Source of the DNA: a virus
Length of the DNA stretch: 51,252 nucleotides
Strand: one strand, 5' to 3'
IMG/VR virus record: IMGVR_UViG_3300045996_000928
Span: 1-51,252 of that record
Of the stretch, positions 1,723 to 51,252 are shown piece after piece. The notes beneath the pieces are model-generated. The model did no database searches and had not been told where the DNA came from. It saw nothing but the letters and a program-made list of their open reading frames with translations. The position numbers and the translations under genes were made by a program. Every line of letters starts with the position of its first letter. Positions within the stretch are counted from its first letter, which is position 1.

Positions 1723-1911
1723 CCCGTACCAAAACCCGTACCTAAAAATAGCAAAATCCGCAATGAAAAACGGCTTAAATAAGCAGGAAACGCACTTTTT
1801 AAATGATGATGTAGATTCGATTCCCGCTCTGAGTACATTACAAACCCCGAAATTAGCCTCAAAAGAGGCTTTTTTCGTTTTAGAAAAAAAACCCGTACCT
1901 AAATCCGTACC
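1723..1911. other. Putative attP: tRNA-like core flanked by paired integrase arm repeats
   Basis: Two pairs of 8-bp direct repeats flank a core. CCCGTACC lies at 1723-1730 and 1735-1742. The right pair is CCCGTACC at 1892-1899 and TCCGTACC at 1904-1911. Both pairs have the same 12-bp period. Midway, 1816-1835 reads TTCGATTCCCGCTCTGAGTA, which has the layout of a tRNA 3' end: T-loop, 5-nt T-stem strand, 7-nt acceptor strand and discriminator A. A terminator hairpin follows at 1855-1875, as expected behind a host tRNA gene. The layout is that of a tyrosine-recombinase attP with the core copied from the 3' end of the target tRNA. The host tRNA cannot be named with confidence from this fragment. 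Confidence 0.62.
1855..1875 (+). terminator. Intrinsic terminator inside attP
   Basis: Stem AGCCTC/GAGGCT with an AAAA loop followed by TTTTT. It stands 20 bp behind the tRNA-3'-end-like core. It may be the transcription terminator captured with the host tRNA end, and it also isolates the integrase from transcription coming from the lipoprotein genes. Confidence 0.7.
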
Positions 1912-1930
1912 AATACGTAAAAGGTTTACT

Positions 1931-3124
1931 ATGGATATAAAGCCCTATAAATTACCTGTTATTATACGACCAAAAAGCGGAGATTGGTTTGTAAGGTTTT
2001 GGTATGAGTTACCGGATAGACCCGGCAAATTCAAAGCATTTCATGTTAGGGATGGTATTAATCGAATACACGACCCCATAGAAAAAGAGAAAGCTATTGC
2101 GGAACTGTGTAAGGATGTAAAATTTTGGCTCGAAAAAAAGGACTATAACCCATTTGATAAAGAAAACCAAATTAAGGAAAAGGTTACTACTATTCGGGCA
2201 AAGGTTGGGGAACTGAATAAGAAAATGCTATTGAGCGAATCCCTAACTTGGTTTTTAGGTCAAAAAGCTGAAAAGGGCAAATCTGATAAAACAACCAGGG
2301 GCTATGAATATCATCTTAAACCCTTTGTTGAATGGTGCGCTAAGAAAGAACTTTTACGAATTGATGAGCCAACTATTGACCATATAGAAAACTATTTGTC
2401 AGAACGCTTAAAACTAGGCTGGACGGCCCGTACATATAATAACGTCACTAATACTTTAACAGGATTTTTTAATTACTTGGTTGCAAAACGTAAACTAGCG
2501 GTTACCCCGATTGGCACCGGCATGATTGACCGAATTAAAAATACAGCAGAAAAAAACCGTTACTATGAGCCTGCTATACGGGAGCTAATAATGCCTGAAG
2601 TAAAAAAGAAACCACAATTAAGACGGTTTATACTTTGGACTTATTATAGCTGCGCCCGTGGATCGGAATTAAGGGCTTTAAAAATAAAGAATGTTGACTT
2701 GAAGCTAAAAAAGATAACCATCACGGCCGAAAGTGGCAAGACAGGTGAATATGTAGGCGCACGTTCAATCCCTATATGTAACGAGTTAATGGATATTTTA
2801 AAAGAGGAAAAATTAAAAGATTTAAACCCTGACTGGTACGTGTTTGGTAGAACCGGCGAACCCTCGGCAAAACCTTTATCACACGAATTAATGAGTAGAC
2901 ATTATTTAGCCATTAAGGATAAACTTAAAATTGATCGGAATTATACAATATATAGCTGGAAACACACAAGGGTTTGTGACCTATTGGTTGCTGGGTTTGA
3001 GCCTATTAAAGTAATGCGAATTACAGGACATACCGACTACGCCAGTTTCGAGAAATATACTCGGGAACTCGGTGTGGTAATGGATAAAACACTTACAGGT
3101 GATACATTAACACTTAATATTTAA
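1931..3124 (+). CDS. int: Tyrosine recombinase integrase
   Basis: From the ATG at 1931 the protein has 397 residues, the usual size for Bacteroidota phage integrases: N-terminal arm-binding domain, SAM-like core-binding domain (about 105-190) and catalytic domain. An in-frame ATG at 1763 would add 56 residues, but that stretch contains the attP core, the terminator and two arm repeats, so the shorter form is preferred. Visible catalytic residues in the 397-residue numbering are Arg243 (ARGSEL), Lys270 (ESGKTG), His367 (ITGH) and the nucleophile Tyr376 (EKYTREL). Box II reads YSWKHTR instead of HxLRHT. From memory this variant is common in Bacteroidota phage integrases. The enzyme joins attP to the host tRNA site and reverses this on induction. 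Confidence 0.93.
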   Translation: MDIKPYKLPVIIRPKSGDWFVRFWYELPDRPGKFKAFHVRDGINRIHDPIEKEKAIAELCKDVKFWLEKKDYNPFDKENQIKEKVTTIRAKVGELNKKMLLSESLTWFLGQKAEKGKSDKTTRGYEYHLKPFVEWCAKKELLRIDEPTIDHIENYLSERLKLGWTARTYNNVTNTLTGFFNYLVAKRKLAVTPIGTGMIDRIKNTAEKNRYYEPAIRELIMPEVKKKPQLRRFILWTYYSCARGSELRALKIKNVDLKLKKITITAESGKTGEYVGARSIPICNELMDILKEEKLKDLNPDWYVFGRTGEPSAKPLSHELMSRHYLAIKDKLKIDRNYTIYSWKHTRVCDLLVAGFEPIKVMRITGHTDYASFEKYTRELGVVMDKTLTGDTLTLNI

Positions 3125-3126
3125 AC

Positions 3127-3516
3127 TTACAGTAAGCCATTGTCTTTAAATGAAAAATACGCATCATCCTTTTCTACCAAAATTAAATGGTCAAGTAGAT
3201 TTATTTTTAGTATTTCCAAAGCGGCTTTTAAATTATTTGTAGCTATAATGTCGTTTTCGGACGGCTTGCAGTTTCCGCTTGGGTGGTTGTGCGCTAAAAC
3301 AACGTTACAGCAATTATTTTTAAAGGCTTTTTTAACTAACTTTTTTGCATTGATTTTACAGTTTGACATTTTCCCGGTATCAATAATTATAAAATCAATT
3401 CTTTTTCCTTGATTATCCACAAGAACCCCCAAAATACTTTCGTACATGGAAATGGAGTTGTAGGGCCAAATATTCCTTAAATAAGAATTGCAATCCTTAG
3501 GGTTGGTTAGTGGCAT
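3127..3516 (-). CDS. RadC-like JAB/MPN domain protein
   Basis: A 129-residue protein consisting of the RadC C-terminal JAB (MPN+) domain only. The helix-hairpin-helix N-terminus of long RadC proteins is absent. The metal motif is complete: Glu26, then His76-Asn-His78-Pro-Ser-Gly, and Pro85-Ser86 through Asp89. The family is a putative zinc hydrolase common on mobile elements, where it is loosely linked to recombination and anti-restriction. The true role of RadC is unsettled. It converges on the integrase with 2 bp between the stops and probably has its own promoter in 3517-3721. Confidence 0.85.
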   Translation of the reverse strand: MPLTNPKDCNSYLRNIWPYNSISMYESILGVLVDNQGKRIDFIIIDTGKMSNCKINAKKLVKKAFKNNCCNVVLAHNHPSGNCKPSENDIIATNNLKAALEILKINLLDHLILVEKDDAYFSFKDNGLL

Positions 3517-4356: not shown

Positions 4357-4815
4357 TTATTTAACTCCTTTAAATATTTTTTGGTAGGCGAACTCCAAAA
4401 CCCCTAAACCTAAAGTTATCCAATTTAAACGCCCTGTGCTTAACCATGAAGCAGCCGCCTTTGCGCCCACTTCCCAAAGTCCGTTCCATCCATCATCTGT
4501 TAAACCATCTTCTATGCGCTCTGCCAGTTTATCAAGCCCTGATTGAATATCAGTACTATTTATACCCCAACTTTTAAGCACGTGGTCTATAACGCCCCGT
4601 GCAACATCCTTTGAAACATCGCAGCCTGTAGCTACGGCATTAATTAAATATTCGGGGCCTAATGTATATCCCGATTTTATAAGCTCGCTTATATTAACGC
4701 CTTTGATAATAGCGTCCTTTTGGTCTTCCGGCAATTCATTAAATGCCTTTTTAGTGCTTCGGAATAACCCATCAAAAAACTTTCCAATGGATTGAATTAA
4801 GGATTTCAAACTCAT
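4357..4815 (-). CDS. Lysis-region protein of unknown function (152 aa)
   Basis: A helical protein with a basic amphipathic N-terminus (about 1-26), an acidic middle and a hydrophobic, Ala/Trp-rich C-terminal third (AAASWLSTGRLNWITLGLGVLEFAYQKIF). It starts 2 bp behind the stop of the holin-like gene, so it is probably translated with the lysis genes. The hydrophobic C-terminus suggests membrane contact. A holin, antiholin or spanin role is possible, but nothing in the sequence decides it. Confidence 0.6.
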   Translation of the reverse strand: MSLKSLIQSIGKFFDGLFRSTKKAFNELPEDQKDAIIKGVNISELIKSGYTLGPEYLINAVATGCDVSKDVARGVIDHVLKSWGINSTDIQSGLDKLAERIEDGLTDDGWNGLWEVGAKAAASWLSTGRLNWITLGLGVLEFAYQKIFKGVK

Positions 4816-4817
4816 AA

Positions 4818-5084
4818 CTAATCTTTTTCTACAACTCCAAACATTTTACTGAAGCCTAAAGCCAAAGCATCAACACCTTTCAAGACGAGTAATATTTCAA
4901 ACTTATCTGCTTCGGCTATGCGCTGCGTACCTGCTACAACCAACACAATAGCCGATGTAACAATAAACACACTTCTAAACAGCCATTTAGCCCATAAGGG
5001 AGTTGGTGCGCTTATAGCCCCAAATTGAACTGTTGTGTTTGACTTGGCTACCGCCTTATCATCAATTAATACTTTTTCTGACAT
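4818..5084 (-). CDS. Putative holin
   Basis: An 88-residue protein with one strong membrane helix (about 36-54, LFRSVFIVTSAIVLVVAGT) and a second hydrophobic stretch (about 64-84). It lies between the endolysin gene (12 bp upstream) and another lysis-region gene. Size, topology and position match a small phage holin that opens the inner membrane for the endolysin. No holin family signature was recognised, so the call rests on context. Confidence 0.55.
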   Translation of the reverse strand: MSEKVLIDDKAVAKSNTTVQFGAISAPTPLWAKWLFRSVFIVTSAIVLVVAGTQRIAEADKFEILLVLKGVDALALGFSKMFGVVEKD

Positions 5085-27805: not shown

Positions 27806-29119
27806 TTAATAAACACGCATTGAAGCCTTGCCTCTTTGATCTTCGCAGACGTACCCAAATGCGTCTAAAAATGCATGATCATACCCTGCTTTTGGTGTAT
27901 CTGTGTAGTTGCCATATTTGTCTTGATCGTATACGCAATTATTAACCTCTTCCCATAATTCGGCGTGTTCTTCAACTGCATAAATTTCTAAGCCGGTCAT
28001 TAATCCAATACGAGCTTTAATATCTTTAGATGGGCATGGAACTGCATAAAAACCCCTGTTTAATTCGGGATGCTTTCTATACATTTCAATATCTAAATCA
28101 CGCCACCCGGTTGCTAACTTGTTAATGGTTTCAGGCTCTGCATAATCACATACAATTTTATCTTGTGGGCCAAGCTTCAAAGTGCTATATAATTTACCTA
28201 TTTCTAATACAGGTTTTGGCTTATAGCAAATCAGCCTTACATAAGCCTTGTTGCCATCAAATTTAGCCCCTATAGTTGCTGCCGGGCTTGCTGTTCCGAA
28301 ATCCTGACCAAATACTTCAGGTAAGCGTAAAGCCATGTAATCAGCAAGCTTAATAGGTTTTACCTTAGTAAACACTTGGCCTTTACGCCCGGTGCTTGCA
28401 TAACCTTTAATAGCTGTTAAGTAGTAATGCGGGTTGTATAAATGATGGTCAGGCTTGCCGTAACCCTCGTAATTATCTACAATGTGGGCCGGTAGGTATG
28501 GATTATCTAAGTAGGATGTTTGTATGCAGAAAAAACCTTTTATGTCTTTTGGTATAAGTTCATAGTAACCATCTTCTACTTGCCTGGTATTAAAGAACCT
28601 CTTAACTATCCAGTGGCCCAAATCAGGGGTGTTAAGCATAATTACAATGATAGCGCCCCGCTTGCGCAAGCTATCGGCAAAGGTGTTAAACTTATCAACG
28701 TCTCTTATATCTTCGGCCTCTTCAATTACCGCTATATCAATTGCCGCATCACCCTTTAAGTTTGCAGACTTTTGATTATTGGAAGCCCTGAAGCCTTTGG
28801 TGTAAACTAAGGTGTTGCCGGTTTTCTTTTCTTTTAACTCGGTTTCGTTTTTAGAATAGTAATGATCAAGTATTCCATCTTCATTAGCGGTGTCATACCT
28901 TGCCCAAATCTCACTTAAAATACTTTCTTTGATACGGGTTAATTCATCACGTAGGATAACACAACGTTTCTTTTCAATTGTGGCTTTGTAGGCTATGAAT
29001 TTAGATACCTCATAGGTTTTTCGGCCTCCACGCCCTCCGATTGCAACTACTATGCTTATATCTTCAGGTAGTTCATAAAGGGCTTTAAATGGGCCAGTAT
29101 CTAATACCTCAACTTCCAT
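27806..29119 (-). CDS. terL: Terminase large subunit
   Basis: A 437-residue packaging motor. The ATPase has the deviant Walker A IGGRGGRKT (27-35) and a Walker B with Glu133-Glu134 (IDIAVIEEAED). The C-terminal RNase H-like nuclease shows Asp273 (GQDFGT), Asp325 (IVCDYAE) and Asp414/Asp419 (YDHAFLDAFGY). The order terS, terL, portal and a one-base gap to terS complete the picture. It cuts concatemers and pumps DNA into proheads. Whether ends are cos or pac cannot be told from the sequence. Confidence 0.92.
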   Translation of the reverse strand: MEVEVLDTGPFKALYELPEDISIVVAIGGRGGRKTYEVSKFIAYKATIEKKRCVILRDELTRIKESILSEIWARYDTANEDGILDHYYSKNETELKEKKTGNTLVYTKGFRASNNQKSANLKGDAAIDIAVIEEAEDIRDVDKFNTFADSLRKRGAIIVIMLNTPDLGHWIVKRFFNTRQVEDGYYELIPKDIKGFFCIQTSYLDNPYLPAHIVDNYEGYGKPDHHLYNPHYYLTAIKGYASTGRKGQVFTKVKPIKLADYMALRLPEVFGQDFGTASPAATIGAKFDGNKAYVRLICYKPKPVLEIGKLYSTLKLGPQDKIVCDYAEPETINKLATGWRDLDIEMYRKHPELNRGFYAVPCPSKDIKARIGLMTGLEIYAVEEHAELWEEVNNCVYDQDKYGNYTDTPKAGYDHAFLDAFGYVCEDQRGKASMRVY

Positions 29120-41114: not shown

Positions 41115-41888
41115 TTATATTCCACAAAAAATACCGCATTCAAAGTTTAAGTCTTTCATTTTGCCACCTTTTGCCAATGGGTCAAGTTCATCTAAGAATA
41201 TACGTTTACCTTTAACCCTTACAAGCCTAACACCTTTGCCAATCTCACGGCTTTGTTTTGCCCGTTGTTCAAATACTTCGGGGTGTGCTTTTCTTACATG
41301 ATTCCAATACGTTGGAGAATTTGATTTAACACACCCTATGCAGTTGGCATTCGGATAGCCCATTTTATATATTCTCGGCAACTCAATTCCTGCATTTACC
41401 AACTCTAAAAAACATTCAGCTTTGGTTGTCTCGGAGAGTATATGAATACTGGCGGGGCGTTCCTTTAATTGGAACTTATCAAATCTATTTTTTTCCTCTT
41501 TAGTAAATCCCATTATAGTCCAATCGGGGCGATTTTTAATTTCCCACTCATGCCGGGCTTTCTTTTTCAATTCGAGCGTACAGGGCGCACCCTTAACCCC
41601 TGACATGTATTGTCTATCATCCCAAACCTCAACACATGAGCAATCTTTATATTTACTATTCACCGCTACTAATATTTTTTGACCAAGCCAAGTTTCAACA
41701 TCCCTTAAAAACCGTTGGTTATCTTCGTCTTCATCCTTAATCGGATTGTTTACAATAACAACTTCGTTTGTAGAGCCGTAAATTTCAATCGCTTTCTTAG
41801 CCGCTACAGCACTGGCAGCACCACATGAAAACCAGACTACTATTTTTTCGTTCGGTTTAGGCTTTAATCTATCGGCAATCTGGCTCAT
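41115..41888 (-). CDS. PP-loop ATPase, PAPS reductase-like protein
   Basis: A 257-residue protein of the adenine-nucleotide alpha-hydrolase fold. The PP-loop is VWFSCGAASAVAAK (about 18-31), a variant of SGGxDS. GVKGAPCTLELKKKARHEW has the Cys-Thr-x2-K(x)K pattern of CysH/DndC-like proteins, and GYPNANCIGCVKSNSPTYW carries a Cys-x2-Cys pair that could hold a metal or Fe-S centre. The C-terminus has further Cys in NFECGIFCG. Phage relatives are often annotated as PAPS reductase, but sulfur activation for DNA or nucleotide modification is equally possible. No dnd or sulfate pathway genes are near. Confidence 0.72.
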   Translation of the reverse strand: MSQIADRLKPKPNEKIVVWFSCGAASAVAAKKAIEIYGSTNEVVIVNNPIKDEDEDNQRFLRDVETWLGQKILVAVNSKYKDCSCVEVWDDRQYMSGVKGAPCTLELKKKARHEWEIKNRPDWTIMGFTKEEKNRFDKFQLKERPASIHILSETTKAECFLELVNAGIELPRIYKMGYPNANCIGCVKSNSPTYWNHVRKAHPEVFEQRAKQSREIGKGVRLVRVKGKRIFLDELDPLAKGGKMKDLNFECGIFCGI

Positions 41889-42858: not shown

Positions 42859-43653
42859 TTATTCAAATAAATCTGCTATCTCAATATCCATTTCTTTCAA
42901 TTCGACAAAGAAGTGATTTAAGGCTAATTTTTTAGCGTTGACCTTTACCCTTGTATTCTCATCACCACCGTTTATTATCTCGGCAATTATGGATTTACAC
43001 TCATTCATTTTAACCACATTACCTACATACTGTACCGGGTTATATTGCTTCATTAAATCAGCTTTAGCAAGTCGATAAAAGTCTGCTTTCTGCTCATCAC
43101 TAAAGTTTATTTTACCGTTATCAACTAAGGTTTTATAAACAGCGTTACCGAAGTCATTATAACTTCCTTGCTCTTTAAAACAGGCCCATGCTTTAAGTAG
43201 GTTATTCCATGCCATTTGAGCCTTTTGCTCATCTGTTGGTTCCGGTGTGGCTTCATTTTGTTTAGCCAACTCTGCAACCTGGTCTTTACGTAATTGTGAA
43301 ATTGAATAAGCAGTAAGCCAGTTAAAAGCATCTTTAGGCGCAAGTCCTTTAACCTCACCATACAAACCTTTTGATCCGTTTTCAATAGCGATACCTATTT
43401 CAGCAATCGTTAAGTTGGTAAAGTGGCGTTTAGCATCATCAATTACCGTTATCTTAATCATATCCCTATCTTCATTCGGGGTTTTTAAGCCTAAGTAGAA
43501 AATAGCTTTGTCAATGGCAACTGATACAGCACCATCAATCTCATAAGCAACTGCGCTTTTAACCAAAGTGCTTTTAAGTGCTGATTTGATTATTTGGTTT
43601 TCAGATACCGGCTCGGGCTCTGAATTTTTAATTATCTGTAGTTTGGCTTCCAT
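42859..43653 (-). CDS. Putative replication-associated protein (264 aa)
   Basis: A helical protein located directly after the DUF1376 gene and overlapping it by 26 bp. It contains FTNLTIAEIGIAIENGSKGL and KDAFNWLTAYSISQLRKDQV, the type of sequence seen in replication accessory proteins of Bacteroidota mobile elements. No ATPase motif, so it is not a DnaC-type loader. A role at the replication fork is inferred from position. Confidence 0.55.
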   Translation of the reverse strand: MEAKLQIIKNSEPEPVSENQIIKSALKSTLVKSAVAYEIDGAVSVAIDKAIFYLGLKTPNEDRDMIKITVIDDAKRHFTNLTIAEIGIAIENGSKGLYGEVKGLAPKDAFNWLTAYSISQLRKDQVAELAKQNEATPEPTDEQKAQMAWNNLLKAWACFKEQGSYNDFGNAVYKTLVDNGKINFSDEQKADFYRLAKADLMKQYNPVQYVGNVVKMNECKSIIAEIINGGDENTRVKVNAKKLALNHFFVELKEMDIEIADLFE

Positions 43654-44395
43654 GTCTTTTTTGCATAAAATTTAAGTGGCTGTTGATAGATGATGTTGAT
43701 TTGGCTTGCACTTCGCTCGGTGGTGAAATAGTTGGCTTTGGCTCAAAGAAACCGGCATAGTTATTCCCTATGGCGTCGTTAATTATGCTGAAAGCTATGT
43801 TTGGATCACCTTTGCAAAACCTTTTTAATTTTTCAAAAGCTGTATTTAGGCTATCCGTTGATTTGTAATTTTCCTTACGGTCTTTTTTGTATTTAAGCCA
43901 TCTGTGAAAAACAACTAAAATTTCATGCTCTTGAGCGTTATTAGTTTTAATATCACTATCAACTTCATAATCAATATCAATATCAGTGTTTTGCTTTAGT
44001 TTTGCTTTTGATTTGCTTTCAGTTTGCTTTACGTTTGCTTTAGTTTTGCTTTTATGCCCCCTGCCACCGGTCTTTCCAACTTCGCTCCTAGCCTCTGAAA
44101 TATTAGCCTCACGCATCATACGGCGGCTTTTTATTGAAATCTCAGCATCAGAAATTATTTCAATTTCTAGAATATTATTCTCGGTTAATTCACCTAAAAT
44201 CTCTTTAGTTTCTTGCGAATTTGACTTAAAAAGCACCGATAAACTGCGTAAATTAGTAGTAAAAACACCCTTATTTTCGGCTCTAAAAAGCTTAAATGTC
44301 AATTTCAATAAAGCAAATTCTGCAATTGGTGTTATGCAGTTTGTATCCTGCTCCCAGTCGCCAATATAAAGCGGTATGTAAGGTTGTTTTGCCAT
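43628..44395 (-). CDS. DUF1376-like replication initiation protein
   Basis: A 255-residue protein. The N-terminus QPYIPLYIGDWEQDTNCITP followed by AEFALLKLTFKLF is the DUF1376 winged-helix domain that heads many phage replication proteins. A Lys/Gly-rich, low-complexity linker (about 110-140) leads to a C-terminal helical domain with AIGNNYAGFFEPK, a pattern of replication initiators that recruit the host helicase. Expected to bind the phage origin, which I could not locate as iterons. Confidence 0.72.
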   Translation of the reverse strand: MAKQPYIPLYIGDWEQDTNCITPIAEFALLKLTFKLFRAENKGVFTTNLRSLSVLFKSNSQETKEILGELTENNILEIEIISDAEISIKSRRMMREANISEARSEVGKTGGRGHKSKTKANVKQTESKSKAKLKQNTDIDIDYEVDSDIKTNNAQEHEILVVFHRWLKYKKDRKENYKSTDSLNTAFEKLKRFCKGDPNIAFSIINDAIGNNYAGFFEPKPTISPPSEVQAKSTSSINSHLNFMQKRHGSQTTDN

Positions 44396-44424: not shown

Positions 44425-44826
44425 TTATGCTGCTTTATAGTTATTGAAATGCCTATTTAGGGTAAATAGTATCTTCTCATACCCTCTCCTAAATGAAGCA
44501 TCGGTATCGTTTAAAGCATTGAATTTTTTTAATGAATAGATGATAGTAGTATGATCACGACCGCCAAATAATACCCCCATTTTTTTTAATGTCATAGCAG
44601 GTACGTATTGCTTTATCAAATACATGGCCGTTGACCTGGCATCTGAATAATTACGTTTTCTGCTTTGGCTTTTTAATTTGTACTCTGTAATAGCATAGTG
44701 ATGGCATACAGCTGCCATAATATGATTGATATAAAATTTATCGGTTTTAGGCTCATGTATTTGCTGTAATAAAACAACTTTACTAAGCATACTAGGGCTG
44801 TAAATAATTGGTCTACAATACATCAT
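44425..44826 (-). CDS. Stand-alone DnaA domain IV-like protein
   Basis: A 133-residue protein. The C-terminal part carries SRKRNYSDARSTAMYLIKQY and LFGGRDHTTIIYSLKKF, the Trp-repressor-like helix-turn-helix and the signature GGRDHTT (88-94) of DnaA domain IV, which reads DnaA boxes. The AAA+ module and domains I/II of DnaA are absent. The N-terminal 35 residues are unique. The protein may mark the phage origin or compete with host DnaA for boxes (inference). It overlaps the HTH gene upstream by 4 bases. Confidence 0.82.
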   Translation of the reverse strand: MMYCRPIIYSPSMLSKVVLLQQIHEPKTDKFYINHIMAAVCHHYAITEYKLKSQSRKRNYSDARSTAMYLIKQYVPAMTLKKMGVLFGGRDHTTIIYSLKKFNALNDTDASFRRGYEKILFTLNRHFNNYKAA

Positions 44827-45074
44827 GCTGCCTTAATTTTATTACTACGATCTAGCCAATACTCTTTATATGATTCACCATCTACACGCTTAGAAACGAT
44901 GTTTAAGCCCTTATCTTTAAGCCTGCACACGACTTTTCTTAACTCTGTAGTGTGGAATTTCCAAAACGCTTTTTGAACAGTAAGCACACCTCCAGTCTCA
45001 AAGAATTGCTTAATATCTTCTTGCGCTTTATCTTGGTTACTTAAAATTGAAAGTTGGTTGCTATCCGTTTTCAT
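44823..45074 (-). CDS. Helix-turn-helix protein (83 aa)
   Basis: A short wHTH protein with GGVLTVQKAFWKFHTTELRK and VVCRLKDKGLNIVSKRV, matching the 'HTH domain' family frequent in phage replication regions in which a helix pair is followed by a beta wing with a conserved 'Y..Y.L'. Coupled to the DnaA-like gene. Confidence 0.6.
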   Translation of the reverse strand: MKTDSNQLSILSNQDKAQEDIKQFFETGGVLTVQKAFWKFHTTELRKVVCRLKDKGLNIVSKRVDGESYKEYWLDRSNKIKAA

Positions 45075-45108: not shown

Positions 45109-47196
45109 TTAATCGTTTTTAGGTATGTAGTATGCCTGAAAACGTGTTGTTTCTTTGTATTCAGGACTTTTTATAAGCCCATCACCGGCACCCGCTAAAC
45201 CCTCTGCGCCCCCCTCGTCAATGACTACCTTGCTATCAACCTCTTTAGGTACTCTAAAGCATATTTGTACAGGAAAGTTAACTTTGGCATCGCCTGTAAT
45301 AACTTTTACTGAAGCCCTTTGTGTAGCTGACACAATCCTAAATCCAGTTGAGCGACCTTTTTGCAATAACACACGTAAGTTTTCTTCAAGTGATTTTAAT
45401 TCGCCTGTTTTTTGCAGGGCCAGTTTTGGCTTTCCAGTTTTGGCATAATTGCCCACTTCAACCATTTCTTTAACCGCCAACTCATTGCCTTTTCTTGCTG
45501 CGGAAACAGCATCCGCAAACTCGTCGAATACAACTAAAGTTTTTGTTTTTTTACCATCTTTTACTAGTTCATTCATGTACTCAACAAGATTTGCCATTTC
45601 AGCTTCTATCTCTGAAATTTCGTTATACACTTTATAGCCTCTGCGCTTGTAATCCATAAATTCATATTTCGGGTCAAAAATTACTATTTGGTCAACCCCT
45701 GCTAATTCAGCGTACTCAATAGTTGAGCGTATTGATACAGATTTTCCGCTGCCTGTTGCACCGCATATAAGCATGTGAGGTGTAGAATGGTTATTTAAAT
45801 CCCAATAGATAACATTTTCGAAGTTATCCCGGCCAATTGGTATCTTCATGCCGTTAAGGTCTTTTGGATTGAACAGCAAGTCTCTTTCGCGCTTTTTAGC
45901 TAATTCAACTGCTAAGTATGATTTACCCTCATACACTACAAGGTCATTCGATATGCGGACTGTGGAAACATCTAAGGCGTTTGCTATATCCAATTTGTGG
46001 GAGTGTATGGAAGATATTTTAACCCCGGCTGATATTGATAGTAAATAAGTATTACTTGAATAACCATCAAAGGCGTGTTTAACCTCAACTATTAGCCCGA
46101 AAGAGCGTAACACGTGTTCTATTTTTTGCTGTTGTGTCATATTTTTATTTGAAAAATCGTACTGTATAAATTCTGATGCGTTTTTTTGAAACTCCCTGAT
46201 AACTTTCGGGTTAACGGTTGCTATTGAAGCATCACGTATTTTTTTAAGGCGTTTGGATATTAACTCACGTTTATGAAGTGGCACGTCAAATTCCTCTACT
46301 TCAGACAATAAAGTTTTCATCCAAAAATCATATAGTTCAGCTTTGTCTACATAATTGTCGGCTTGATTGATAACATAAGTATAGTCGGGGTCGCTCACAG
46401 CCTCACACATGCGTTTTAAAGGCTCATAAAGCAAGTGTTCATATAGTCGCCTGGTATCTTTGTTTACATCAACTGAAATAGGCACTACCTGCGCTGATTT
46501 GTCTTTATTTTGAGACGGCTTATTTTCAATGAATTTTACTTTACCTACTTCAAGTCCTGATTTCGCTTCATAAACATTAACATAAGTTATGGCCTGCTCA
46601 CCTATTGATAACCGGGCCTCTTGCTCATCTGTAAATGAAACTTTTGATTTATGATCCACTATTACTATTTGATCGCTGTAGTTAAGGTAAACAAGGTCAA
46701 TTTGAGCATGGCAGGGCATTGGTATGTCAACACCGTTTACAGCAACCCATTCATTGCAATAAACCTCAACATCAATTACCTCTTTTATATCATCTATGTA
46801 AACATTAATATCACTAAAGAAATTTCGTATTAGCTTAGTAGCTACTTCAGTTGCTTTAATTCTGCATTCCTCAACCGTTGGCGTTGTTTTCTGAATTTTC
46901 CAAATATTTGCCGGGCGTTCATCAATGTACTCAAAGGCAACTTTCTCGAGCGTAACAACATCTAAAACGTTACCGGCTTTATATTCTAAAAAGAATGATT
47001 TTAAAGCCTCATGATAAGCGTTGCCTGCCATTGTGGTTGAGGATAACCTACCTTTAATGTTGTAGATATAGCCCATTTCAAATGCCTTTTCATTACGGGC
47101 AAATGATGATACTTTGCTATAACTCCAACTACTTATTAAAAAGTTGGAAAGGTGTGTATCTATTTCTTGCTGATTGTATGTTTTATAGATACTCAT
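45109..47196 (-). CDS. RecB-type nuclease fused to FtsK/SpoIIIE-like DNA translocase
   Basis: A 695-residue two-part enzyme. Residues 20-210 form a PD-(D/E)XK nuclease of the RecB/Cas4 type: GNAYHEAL with His62, IDLVY with Asp167, VDHKSK with Asp181 and Lys183, and the QxxxY motif QAITY at 201-205. Residues 365-690 are an FtsK/SpoIIIE motor: the beta domain with SISAGVKISSIHSHKLDIAN, Walker A GATGSGKS (479-486), the FDPKYEFMDY strand and Walker B VVFDEFAD (Asp558-Glu559). There is no FtsK gamma (KOPS-reading) domain. The start overlaps the annealing protein gene stop (ATGA), so the pair works together, probably as exonuclease-plus-annealing recombination. Confidence 0.85.
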   Translation of the reverse strand: MSIYKTYNQQEIDTHLSNFLISSWSYSKVSSFARNEKAFEMGYIYNIKGRLSSTTMAGNAYHEALKSFFLEYKAGNVLDVVTLEKVAFEYIDERPANIWKIQKTTPTVEECRIKATEVATKLIRNFFSDINVYIDDIKEVIDVEVYCNEWVAVNGVDIPMPCHAQIDLVYLNYSDQIVIVDHKSKVSFTDEQEARLSIGEQAITYVNVYEAKSGLEVGKVKFIENKPSQNKDKSAQVVPISVDVNKDTRRLYEHLLYEPLKRMCEAVSDPDYTYVINQADNYVDKAELYDFWMKTLLSEVEEFDVPLHKRELISKRLKKIRDASIATVNPKVIREFQKNASEFIQYDFSNKNMTQQQKIEHVLRSFGLIVEVKHAFDGYSSNTYLLSISAGVKISSIHSHKLDIANALDVSTVRISNDLVVYEGKSYLAVELAKKRERDLLFNPKDLNGMKIPIGRDNFENVIYWDLNNHSTPHMLICGATGSGKSVSIRSTIEYAELAGVDQIVIFDPKYEFMDYKRRGYKVYNEISEIEAEMANLVEYMNELVKDGKKTKTLVVFDEFADAVSAARKGNELAVKEMVEVGNYAKTGKPKLALQKTGELKSLEENLRVLLQKGRSTGFRIVSATQRASVKVITGDAKVNFPVQICFRVPKEVDSKVVIDEGGAEGLAGAGDGLIKSPEYKETTRFQAYYIPKND

Positions 47197-47903
47197 GGCA
47201 TTTGGGTTTTATTTTGGAAACCACTTAATAACTCATTGTATTTTGCAGTAGATACAAGGTTTTGAGCGTATGCCCTTACTAAATCAGCTTTAGTTTTAAT
47301 TGCCTTTATGGTGGTTGGCTTATCAATATTCTTATCGGTTTCCTGCTCATCTTCAGGTACTACTTTGTGGGCCGGTTTGTCTGAAATGTTATAAGGGGTG
47401 TAATCATCTTCAATTTTTCGCATCAGGTCAGATCCAAATCGTTTGCCTATTTTTTTGGCTGCGTTTTTAATTGCTTCGGCATATGCATTTGGGGCTGCTA
47501 ACTTTAAAGCAGTTTGCAACTTTTCAACATGAAAGTCTATTATTTGAGTACCCGATTTTTGCTGTATAAGTGCTGCGCCTATTCCATCATAGTTTAGCCA
47601 TTGCATCATTATTGGATGAAAAACTTTAACCCGGGCTGCAACCTCAAACTCATTAAGTACTTGCTTTGACCATAGTATCTCAAATTGCACCATTCCAAAG
47701 AAAACTTTGTCCAGGTCTTTTTCAATAACTGAAATAGGCACATAGGTAATGTTTTTACCGTTTATGCTTTCGGTTACTACTTTGGTGGGCTTTGCGTTTA
47801 ATGAAGTGGTGAAGTTCTGCATATCAGCAAGAAATTGCTTCCTCACTTCTGGCGACATCATTTTAAAACTGCCGGAATCTGTTACTTGTAATTCGGTACC
47901 CAT
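47193..47903 (-). CDS. Rad52-like single-strand annealing protein
   Basis: A 236-residue recombinase of the Rad52/22-like (Sak-type) group. The core reads YVPISVIEKDLDKVFFGMVQ, then VAARVKVFHPIMMQWLNYDG, and later AAPNAYAEAIKNAAKKIGKR-FG, matching the beta-sheet and the A..A..N..K..G.RFG helix of the Rad52 fold. The C-terminus is an acidic, flexible tail. Sits before the nuclease-translocase gene with a 4-base overlap. It should anneal resected phage DNA ends during replication and circularisation. Confidence 0.78.
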   Translation of the reverse strand: MGTELQVTDSGSFKMMSPEVRKQFLADMQNFTTSLNAKPTKVVTESINGKNITYVPISVIEKDLDKVFFGMVQFEILWSKQVLNEFEVAARVKVFHPIMMQWLNYDGIGAALIQQKSGTQIIDFHVEKLQTALKLAAPNAYAEAIKNAAKKIGKRFGSDLMRKIEDDYTPYNISDKPAHKVVPEDEQETDKNIDKPTTIKAIKTKADLVRAYAQNLVSTAKYNELLSGFQNKTQMP

Positions 47904-50963: not shown

Positions 50964-51252
50964 GTGAACGGAATAGAGTTAAAAGAGTTGCGAATAAAAA
51001 AGGGATTGACACAAACGCAATTAGCCGAAATTACGGGCATTCCGCAGGGTACTATAGGCAGATTAGAATCAACCGGTCAGGATATTAAAAAGGTTGATGT
51101 TCTAACTAAACTGATTGCAGTATTCAAAAATGAAAGCGACCCAACCCCAAAAGCAAGCAAAACAAGCATGGTACTAAGTGATTTAACCCCGCATAAAGGT
51201 TATAGTACCACGCCTACAAAGAATACCGAAAATAAAGGAGTACCTTATTATG
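50964..51252 (+). CDS. CI-like repressor, N-terminal HTH part (continues at 128 on the circle)
   Basis: GTG at 50964 opens a frame that runs past the window end into base 128 of the left end, giving a 224-residue repressor. The first 60 residues, NGIELKELRIKKGLTQTQLA and then EITGIPQGTIGRLESTGQDI, are an XRE-type helix-turn-helix. The C-terminal peptidase half is described at 1-513. It lies opposite the early promoter with its operators and controls lysogeny. GTG is used as the start because no ATG fits. Confidence 0.9.
   Translation, partial: MNGIELKELRIKKGLTQTQLAEITGIPQGTIGRLESTGQDIKKVDVLTKLIAVFKNESDPTPKASKTSMVLSDLTPHKGYSTTPTKNTENKGVPYY
51126..51252. repeat. Terminal direct repeat, right copy (circular overlap)
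   Basis: Identical to bases 1-127. See the left copy. It includes the middle of the repressor gene. Confidence 0.93.

Follow-up and report, generated by a model that had tools for sequence, protein, structure and literature searches.

A phage fusion of an FtsK-type motor and a RecB-type nuclease, encoded beside exchangeable annealing proteins with a common C-terminal tail, as a candidate ATP-driven recombination system

The DNA analysed here, hereafter the window, is the 51,252-base IMG/VR virus record IMGVR_UViG_3300045996_000928. Two overlapping genes are the subject of this study: P0002 (47193..47903, minus strand), which codes for a protein of 236 residues of the family phrog_15333 and occupies what we call the annealing-protein slot, and P0001 (45109..47196, minus strand), which codes for a 695-residue fusion of a nuclease and a motor. 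The stop codon of P0002 and the start codon of P0001 overlap as ATGA (47193..47196, minus strand), an arrangement already seen in the first-pass annotation. The pair sits in a leftward early block, and the same operon continues with an 83-residue protein with a weak winged-helix match (44823..45074, minus strand), a 133-residue protein with a match to domain IV of DnaA only (44425..44826, minus strand; PF08299, E = 6e-22) and a protein with a weak replication-initiation O-like match (43628..44395, minus strand), forming an early replication/recombination module. The DnaA domain IV, which adjoins the recombination genes, lacks the AAA+ part; one perfect DnaA box, TTATCCACA, is found at position 3413, within a gene for a RadC-like JAB protein (3127-3516). 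The early block also codes for a PAPS-reductase-like protein (41115-41888; phrog_424, E = 3e-42). A search of the window against Rfam gave no match.

The window ends in a direct terminal repeat of 127 bases (1-127 and 51126-51252), as would be given by a complete circular or terminally redundant assembly, which the window appears to be; when the ends are joined, a repressor-like gene spans the junction. A tyrosine integrase (1763-3124), which the RadC-like gene adjoins, and a large terminase (27806-29119) are also encoded. The best relatives of the terminase belong to phages of Riemerella, Parabacteroides, Olleya, Nonlabens and Bacteroides, which places the host probably among the Bacteroidota. 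The fusion-bearing phages as a group are probably temperate, with hosts probably in the same phylum, and several of the IMG/VR proviruses appear to be derived from isolate genomes.

The N-terminal part of P0001 is a PD-(D/E)XK nuclease domain of the RecB/Cas4 type (residues 23-255; 46432..47130, minus strand; PDDEXK_1, PF12705, E = 2.6e-9), with the fold of ACE1, Dna2 and AdnA and with the His, Asp, Asp-x-Lys and QxxxY motifs of this type at H62, D167, D181-H-K183 and QAITY 201-205 (Q201 and Y205), the positions at which they had been read initially. A conserved set of iron-sulphur cysteines is absent from the nuclease in the aligned copies. The remainder of the protein carries both domains of an FtsK/SpoIIIE motor: an alpha domain (residues 350-432; 45901..46149, minus strand; FtsK_alpha, PF17854, E = 1.6e-8) and a RecA-like beta domain (residues 445-695; 45112..45864, minus strand; FtsK_SpoIIIE/DUF87 in Pfam from residue 450 on, E about 1e-8), with the Walker A motif GATGSGKS at residues 479-486 (45739-45762, minus strand) and Walker B at D558-E559. 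No Pfam match to a gamma domain was found and the protein stops at residue 695, after beta; the first-pass description of a complete motor without gamma thus holds. The N-terminal membrane domain of cellular FtsK/SpoIIIE is likewise absent, the nuclease lying at the N-terminus. In 54 of 54 aligned copies G58, Y61, H62, D167, D181, K183, Q201, G479, K485, E559 and R615 are invariant, as are Q626 and R627, while Y205 is kept in 53/54 and D558 in 52/54, so that both active sites are under selection.

An AlphaFold2 model of P0001, built on 54 homologues, has a pLDDT of 88.9 and consists of two domains, the relative placement of which is not reliable (pTM 0.52). Residues 352-695 match the dsDNA-bound FtsK motor (Z = 32.7, rmsd 2.5, 307 residues aligned), and HerA ranks well below FtsK as a match to the motor (Foldseek/VIA). 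The N-terminal part matches the AdnA nuclease (residues 11-295; Z = 16.5) and the Cas4-like ACE1 (Foldseek E = 4e-9), so that the PD-(D/E)XK fold, on which the first-pass proposal depended, is indeed present. Neither NurA (Pfam, E<=1) nor the SF1 helicase family was matched in P0001, its motor being of the FtsK alpha-beta kind. Among the best structural matches in BFVD was a protein of a metagenomic virus bearing the automatic name 'PD-(D/E)XK nuclease', which may belong to the same fusion family.

A scan for close relatives gave one homologue, while 61 hits came from an alignment scan, all but one of them with a long frame. These 60 further fusions, all from IMG/VR, are 37-66% identical to the window protein and have the same architecture in all complete copies; one frame (L040:2104-3804) stops early, after Walker B, at 566 residues, possibly through a frameshift or truncation. 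Where PDDEXK_1 was found in fusion-bearing records, there was one match per record and always in a frame of about 700 residues; this search missed the window's own copy, found by hmmscan, and its absences carry no weight. The fusion was absent from 50,697 annotated phages and 72,556 plasmids, no match there covering most of P0001, and residues 1-340 alone had no match among the 50,697 phage records. Annotated phage FtsK proteins match P0001 only from about residue 250-360 on; those of phages WXIN, SIOphi and Troll, considered as relatives of the same architecture, were rejected as motor-only matches. Two peptide-pattern scans of a cellular genome collection found no relative, which says little given the strictness of the patterns.

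The gene preceding the fusion was clustered across the 60 loci and the window and named with Pfam and PHROGs. A named annealing family fills this slot in 35/61 loci: RecT (12), Sak4-like (12), ERF (4), Rad52 (3; a true Rad52_Rad22, PF04098, in L033, where E = 8e-7, L038 and L042), a second RecT type (3) and a Bet-like protein (1). These loci thus show the arrangement of SynExo pairs, an annealing gene adjacent to a nuclease gene. In 24/61 loci the slot is filled by one of four unnamed families, phrog_3657 (15), the L007 type (5), the window type, phrog_15333 (3), and the L028 type (1), and in two, L034 and L049, no partner was found. In L025 a gene for an HNH endonuclease (4477-5004) has entered precisely at the junction of the annealing and motor-nuclease genes and overlaps both. 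The closest relative of the window fusion (L003; 66% identical) has a RecT upstream, and a tree built from 59 fusions requires at least 24 changes of slot family, the minimum possible being 9. Unrelated proteins have thus been exchanged in one functional position upstream of the fusion.

The partner encoded in the window was labelled Rad52-like in the first-pass annotation, and this label could not be confirmed. P0002 has no match to Rad52_Rad22 (PF04098) at E<=1, nor any Pfam, PDB-sequence or hhalign match; profile comparisons with Rad52, ERF, RecT and L007-type sets gave no support, the sets, of 3-11 sequences, being too small. The order of predicted elements fits the beta-beta-alpha-beta-beta-beta-alpha core of the Rad52 superfamily, but the AlphaFold2 model is poor (pLDDT 49.6), and its Foldseek matches, to unrelated proteins, were discarded for that reason. 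Homologues of P0002 precede the fusion in L020 and L022, and the only one in an annotated phage, a TM7 phage, overlaps the gene for a stand-alone exonuclease by four bases. The position of P0002, its C-terminal tail (see below) and this TM7 homologue, rather than its fold, support its being an annealing protein.

The same annealing families were then considered where they occur without the fusion. Among fusion-free relatives, one of the two genes that follow encodes an exonuclease of the YqaJ/RecE type in 65 RecT, 45 phrog_3657 and 13 Sak4-like loci. Three representatives of the exonuclease cluster were checked with PHROGs; two were named exonuclease and the third, of the Sak4 type, falls in phrog_4763, of unassigned function, and is linked to the rest by BLAST. 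The YqaJ nuclease (PF09588) was not found in 23 fusion-bearing records in a search that detected its positive controls. On this evidence the fusion occupies the place of the stand-alone exonuclease, and the neighbours of the fusion-free relatives support, without proving, an annealing role for phrog_3657 and for P0002. Of the recombination system proposed at first, the genetic coupling of the fusion to an annealing protein, in place of a stand-alone exonuclease, is supported; for a Rad52-like nature of the window's own partner no support was found.

Nearly all proteins in the slot, whatever their family, end approximately in K-[VIL]-x-[LM]-P-COOH. The tail of P0002, QNKTQMP (47196..47216, minus strand), conforms to the shared form K-x-x-[LM]-P with K-T-Q-M-P. 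As a control, we compared relatives of four families with and without the fusion, counting non-identical sequences and a strict [LM]P-COOH end. The strict tail was found in 5/13 RecT proteins with the fusion and 1/55 without, in 11/12 and 0/59 of the Sak4-like proteins, in 17/21 and 0/44 of phrog_3657 and in 4/4 and 0/36 of the ERF proteins, or 37/50 against 1/194 for the four families pooled. With the fusion it was also present in Rad52 (3/3), the other RecT type (3/3), the Bet-like protein (1/1) and the window type (2/3). A relaxed form, [LM][PLMA], was found in 50/53 distinct tails against 5/167 controls. The nominal Fisher value on the first tail count, 2e-26, overstates independence, as the loci are related; among 10 well-supported, phylogenetically independent pairs the tail follows the fusion in about six and the reverse occurs in none. 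The repetition of the tail in unrelated families is the stronger argument. Exceptions are the divergent fusions of L049, L051 and L053, with a tail-less or no recognised partner, and L034, with none nearby.

The bodies of annealing proteins with and without the fusion are up to 68-84% identical, yet their C-termini differ. In RecT, Sak4-like and phrog_3657 proteins paired with an exonuclease, medians of 54-62 residues follow the last conserved core position; in those paired with the fusion the medians are 32-34, with the tail at the end. A few proteins (L068, L163 and L250) keep the longer C-terminal region and add the tail. Examples of unnamed slot genes with the common tail are L001:4177-4992 (phrog_3657), L007:3457-4200, L028:4186-5004 and the window's own, 47193-47903; by position and tail, not by fold, the four unnamed families are probably unrecognised annealing proteins. 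The tail looks like the end of the SSBs encoded at these loci: that of one fusion-bearing phage (L001:8234-8608) ends in DDLPF, which tails of the form [DEN][LM]P resemble but for the final Phe.

The sharing of one tail across annealing families suggests a contact with the fusion protein. A different origin is conceivable, in which the fusion is a recombination partner and the tail results from translational coupling, or from DNA hitchhiking with the fusion gene, and not from docking. Most pairs do overlap, by four bases in 28/60 and by one in 11/60 of the homologous loci (39/60 together); the tail codons sit where the ribosome-binding region of the downstream gene would be; and exchange junctions near the gene end are plausible. 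In part, the tail could have travelled with the fusion gene whenever its upstream neighbour was replaced. However, an [LM]P end occurs in only 2/70 of the remaining overlapping pairs at these loci, in each case on an annealing gene displaced from the fusion (in L025 and L041). The tail is kept at intergenic gaps of 78 and 196 bases (the latter in L047), behind the HNH gene in L025 and at about 1.6 kb in L041, and its last two codons vary synonymously (CCA/CCC/CCT/CCG for the last; ATG, TTA, CTG, TTG, CTC, CTT and CTA for the one before). The ATGA overlap was therefore rejected as the cause of the tail, and we regard a tail without a docking function as unlikely.

A late role for the motor-nuclease, in concatemer processing, packaging or dimer resolution, with the annealing gene a mere neighbour in the early operon, seems to us slightly more doubtful still. 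In cells, FtsK motors translocate duplex DNA and act in dimer resolution, and the motor of P0001 has one PHROG match to a terminase large subunit (phrog_2666). The terminase that the window itself encodes at 27806-29119, separate from P0001, makes a role in concatemers or packaging less likely, and we accordingly do not take P0001 for the packaging motor of the phage; TerL (phrog_2) was matched in 9/23 records. Moreover, the fusion gene lies in the replication/recombination block, and a tail that tracks the fusion requires a link to the annealing protein. That the fusion degrades host or competitor DNA, in take-over or inter-phage conflict and in the manner of HerA-containing defence complexes, is highly improbable: the PADLOC matches of the motor to HerA-type, mad8 and SspH models (E down to 4e-22) are expected of any FtsK/HerA motor and were rejected as a defence assignment, being judged generic motor similarity, no defence partner gene is present, and the steady linkage is to annealing proteins whose partners elsewhere are recombination exonucleases.

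We favour, with fairly good confidence, a phage recombinase of two components in which an ATP-driven motor-nuclease takes the part of the exonuclease and the annealing proteins dock by their tail; sequence and genetics support this reading, with activity, polarity and binding inferred from known families. Like known FtsK motors, which are hexamers that track along duplex DNA, the FtsK part of the fusion would form a hexamer and run along the duplex from an end, and the N-terminal RecB-type nuclease would remove one strand, probably the 5'-ended one, as the DNA enters. The 3' strand thus exposed would be passed to the annealing protein, docked on the motor-nuclease via its short C-terminal tail, and this protein would anneal it to phage DNA of homologous sequence in repair, circularisation or exchange. 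If a short tail makes the contact, proteins of nearly any annealing fold could be accommodated, which would explain the frequent swaps. That this amounts to a separate class of recombination machine, a hexameric FtsK-type translocase-nuclease accepting any annealing fold via one short C-terminal peptide, is a broader claim towards which we lean only slightly.

In the SynExo pairs (lambda Exo/Red-beta, RecE/RecT, YqaJ/RecT) an annealing gene of the same families likewise lies beside, and usually upstream of, a PD-(D/E)XK nuclease gene. There, the annealing protein contacts its partner with its C-terminal part, as known for Red-beta, which contacts, and is loaded by, lambda Exo via its C-terminal domain, and non-cognate mixtures (RecE/Red-beta or Red-alpha/RecT) fail (PMC5052646; PMC9512822). 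Here, by contrast, the nuclease is of the RecB/Cas4 type and fused to an FtsK motor instead of being a stand-alone exonuclease of the lambda-Exo, YqaJ or RecE type; a single nuclease family is paired with many annealing families, unlike the lambda and Rac pairs, whose members cannot be interchanged (PMC5052646); and the contact would be a short terminal peptide. The C-terminal module common to annealing families of Firmicutes phages (PMC8093625) is a folded helical domain, unlike the five-residue tail, tied to one partner, described here.

Other systems resemble the fusion in its motor, its nuclease or both. HerA-NurA couples a dsDNA motor of the FtsK-HerA superfamily to a nuclease, the 5' strand being removed in end resection (PMC9960219); it consists, however, of two separate proteins that act with Mre11-Rad50 in archaea, whereas the fusion is one polypeptide, in phages, with a true FtsK alpha-beta motor, a RecB-type nuclease and an annealing-protein partner. 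AddAB, RecBCD and AdnAB also combine an ATP motor with a RecB-type nuclease, that of AdnA being a structural match to the fusion, in processing DNA ends for recombination; their motors are SF1 helicases, and RecBCD and AddAB work with RecA, in contrast to the FtsK motor and annealing protein here. The FtsK/SpoIIIE translocases, including phage FtsK-like proteins, share the alpha-beta motor, but the fusion has neither their membrane domain nor their gamma domain and carries a nuclease instead. A search of the open-licence literature turned up neither an account of an FtsK motor fused to a nuclease and paired with an annealing protein, nor any report that unrelated annealing families share a terminal peptide, and thus no described family that would already account for the architecture and function first proposed. 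Together, the fusion and its tail-bearing partners point to a recombination machine of phages that is driven by ATP, uses one docking tail for its various annealing proteins and has so far gone undescribed.

Recombineering is built on phage recombinases, in which the nuclease and the annealing protein are, as a rule, mutually specific. The fusion can be seen as a phage counterpart of HerA-NurA and RecBCD in a single polypeptide. The plug-in use of partners via one peptide, if true, is absent from the classical exonuclease/annealase pairs, and a motor-nuclease able to serve many annealing proteins by way of a short tail would account for how these proteins come to be exchanged by phages. The tail would then also allow unknown annealing families to be recognised, and the fusion would provide an ATP-driven module for resection in hosts in which recombineering is poor.
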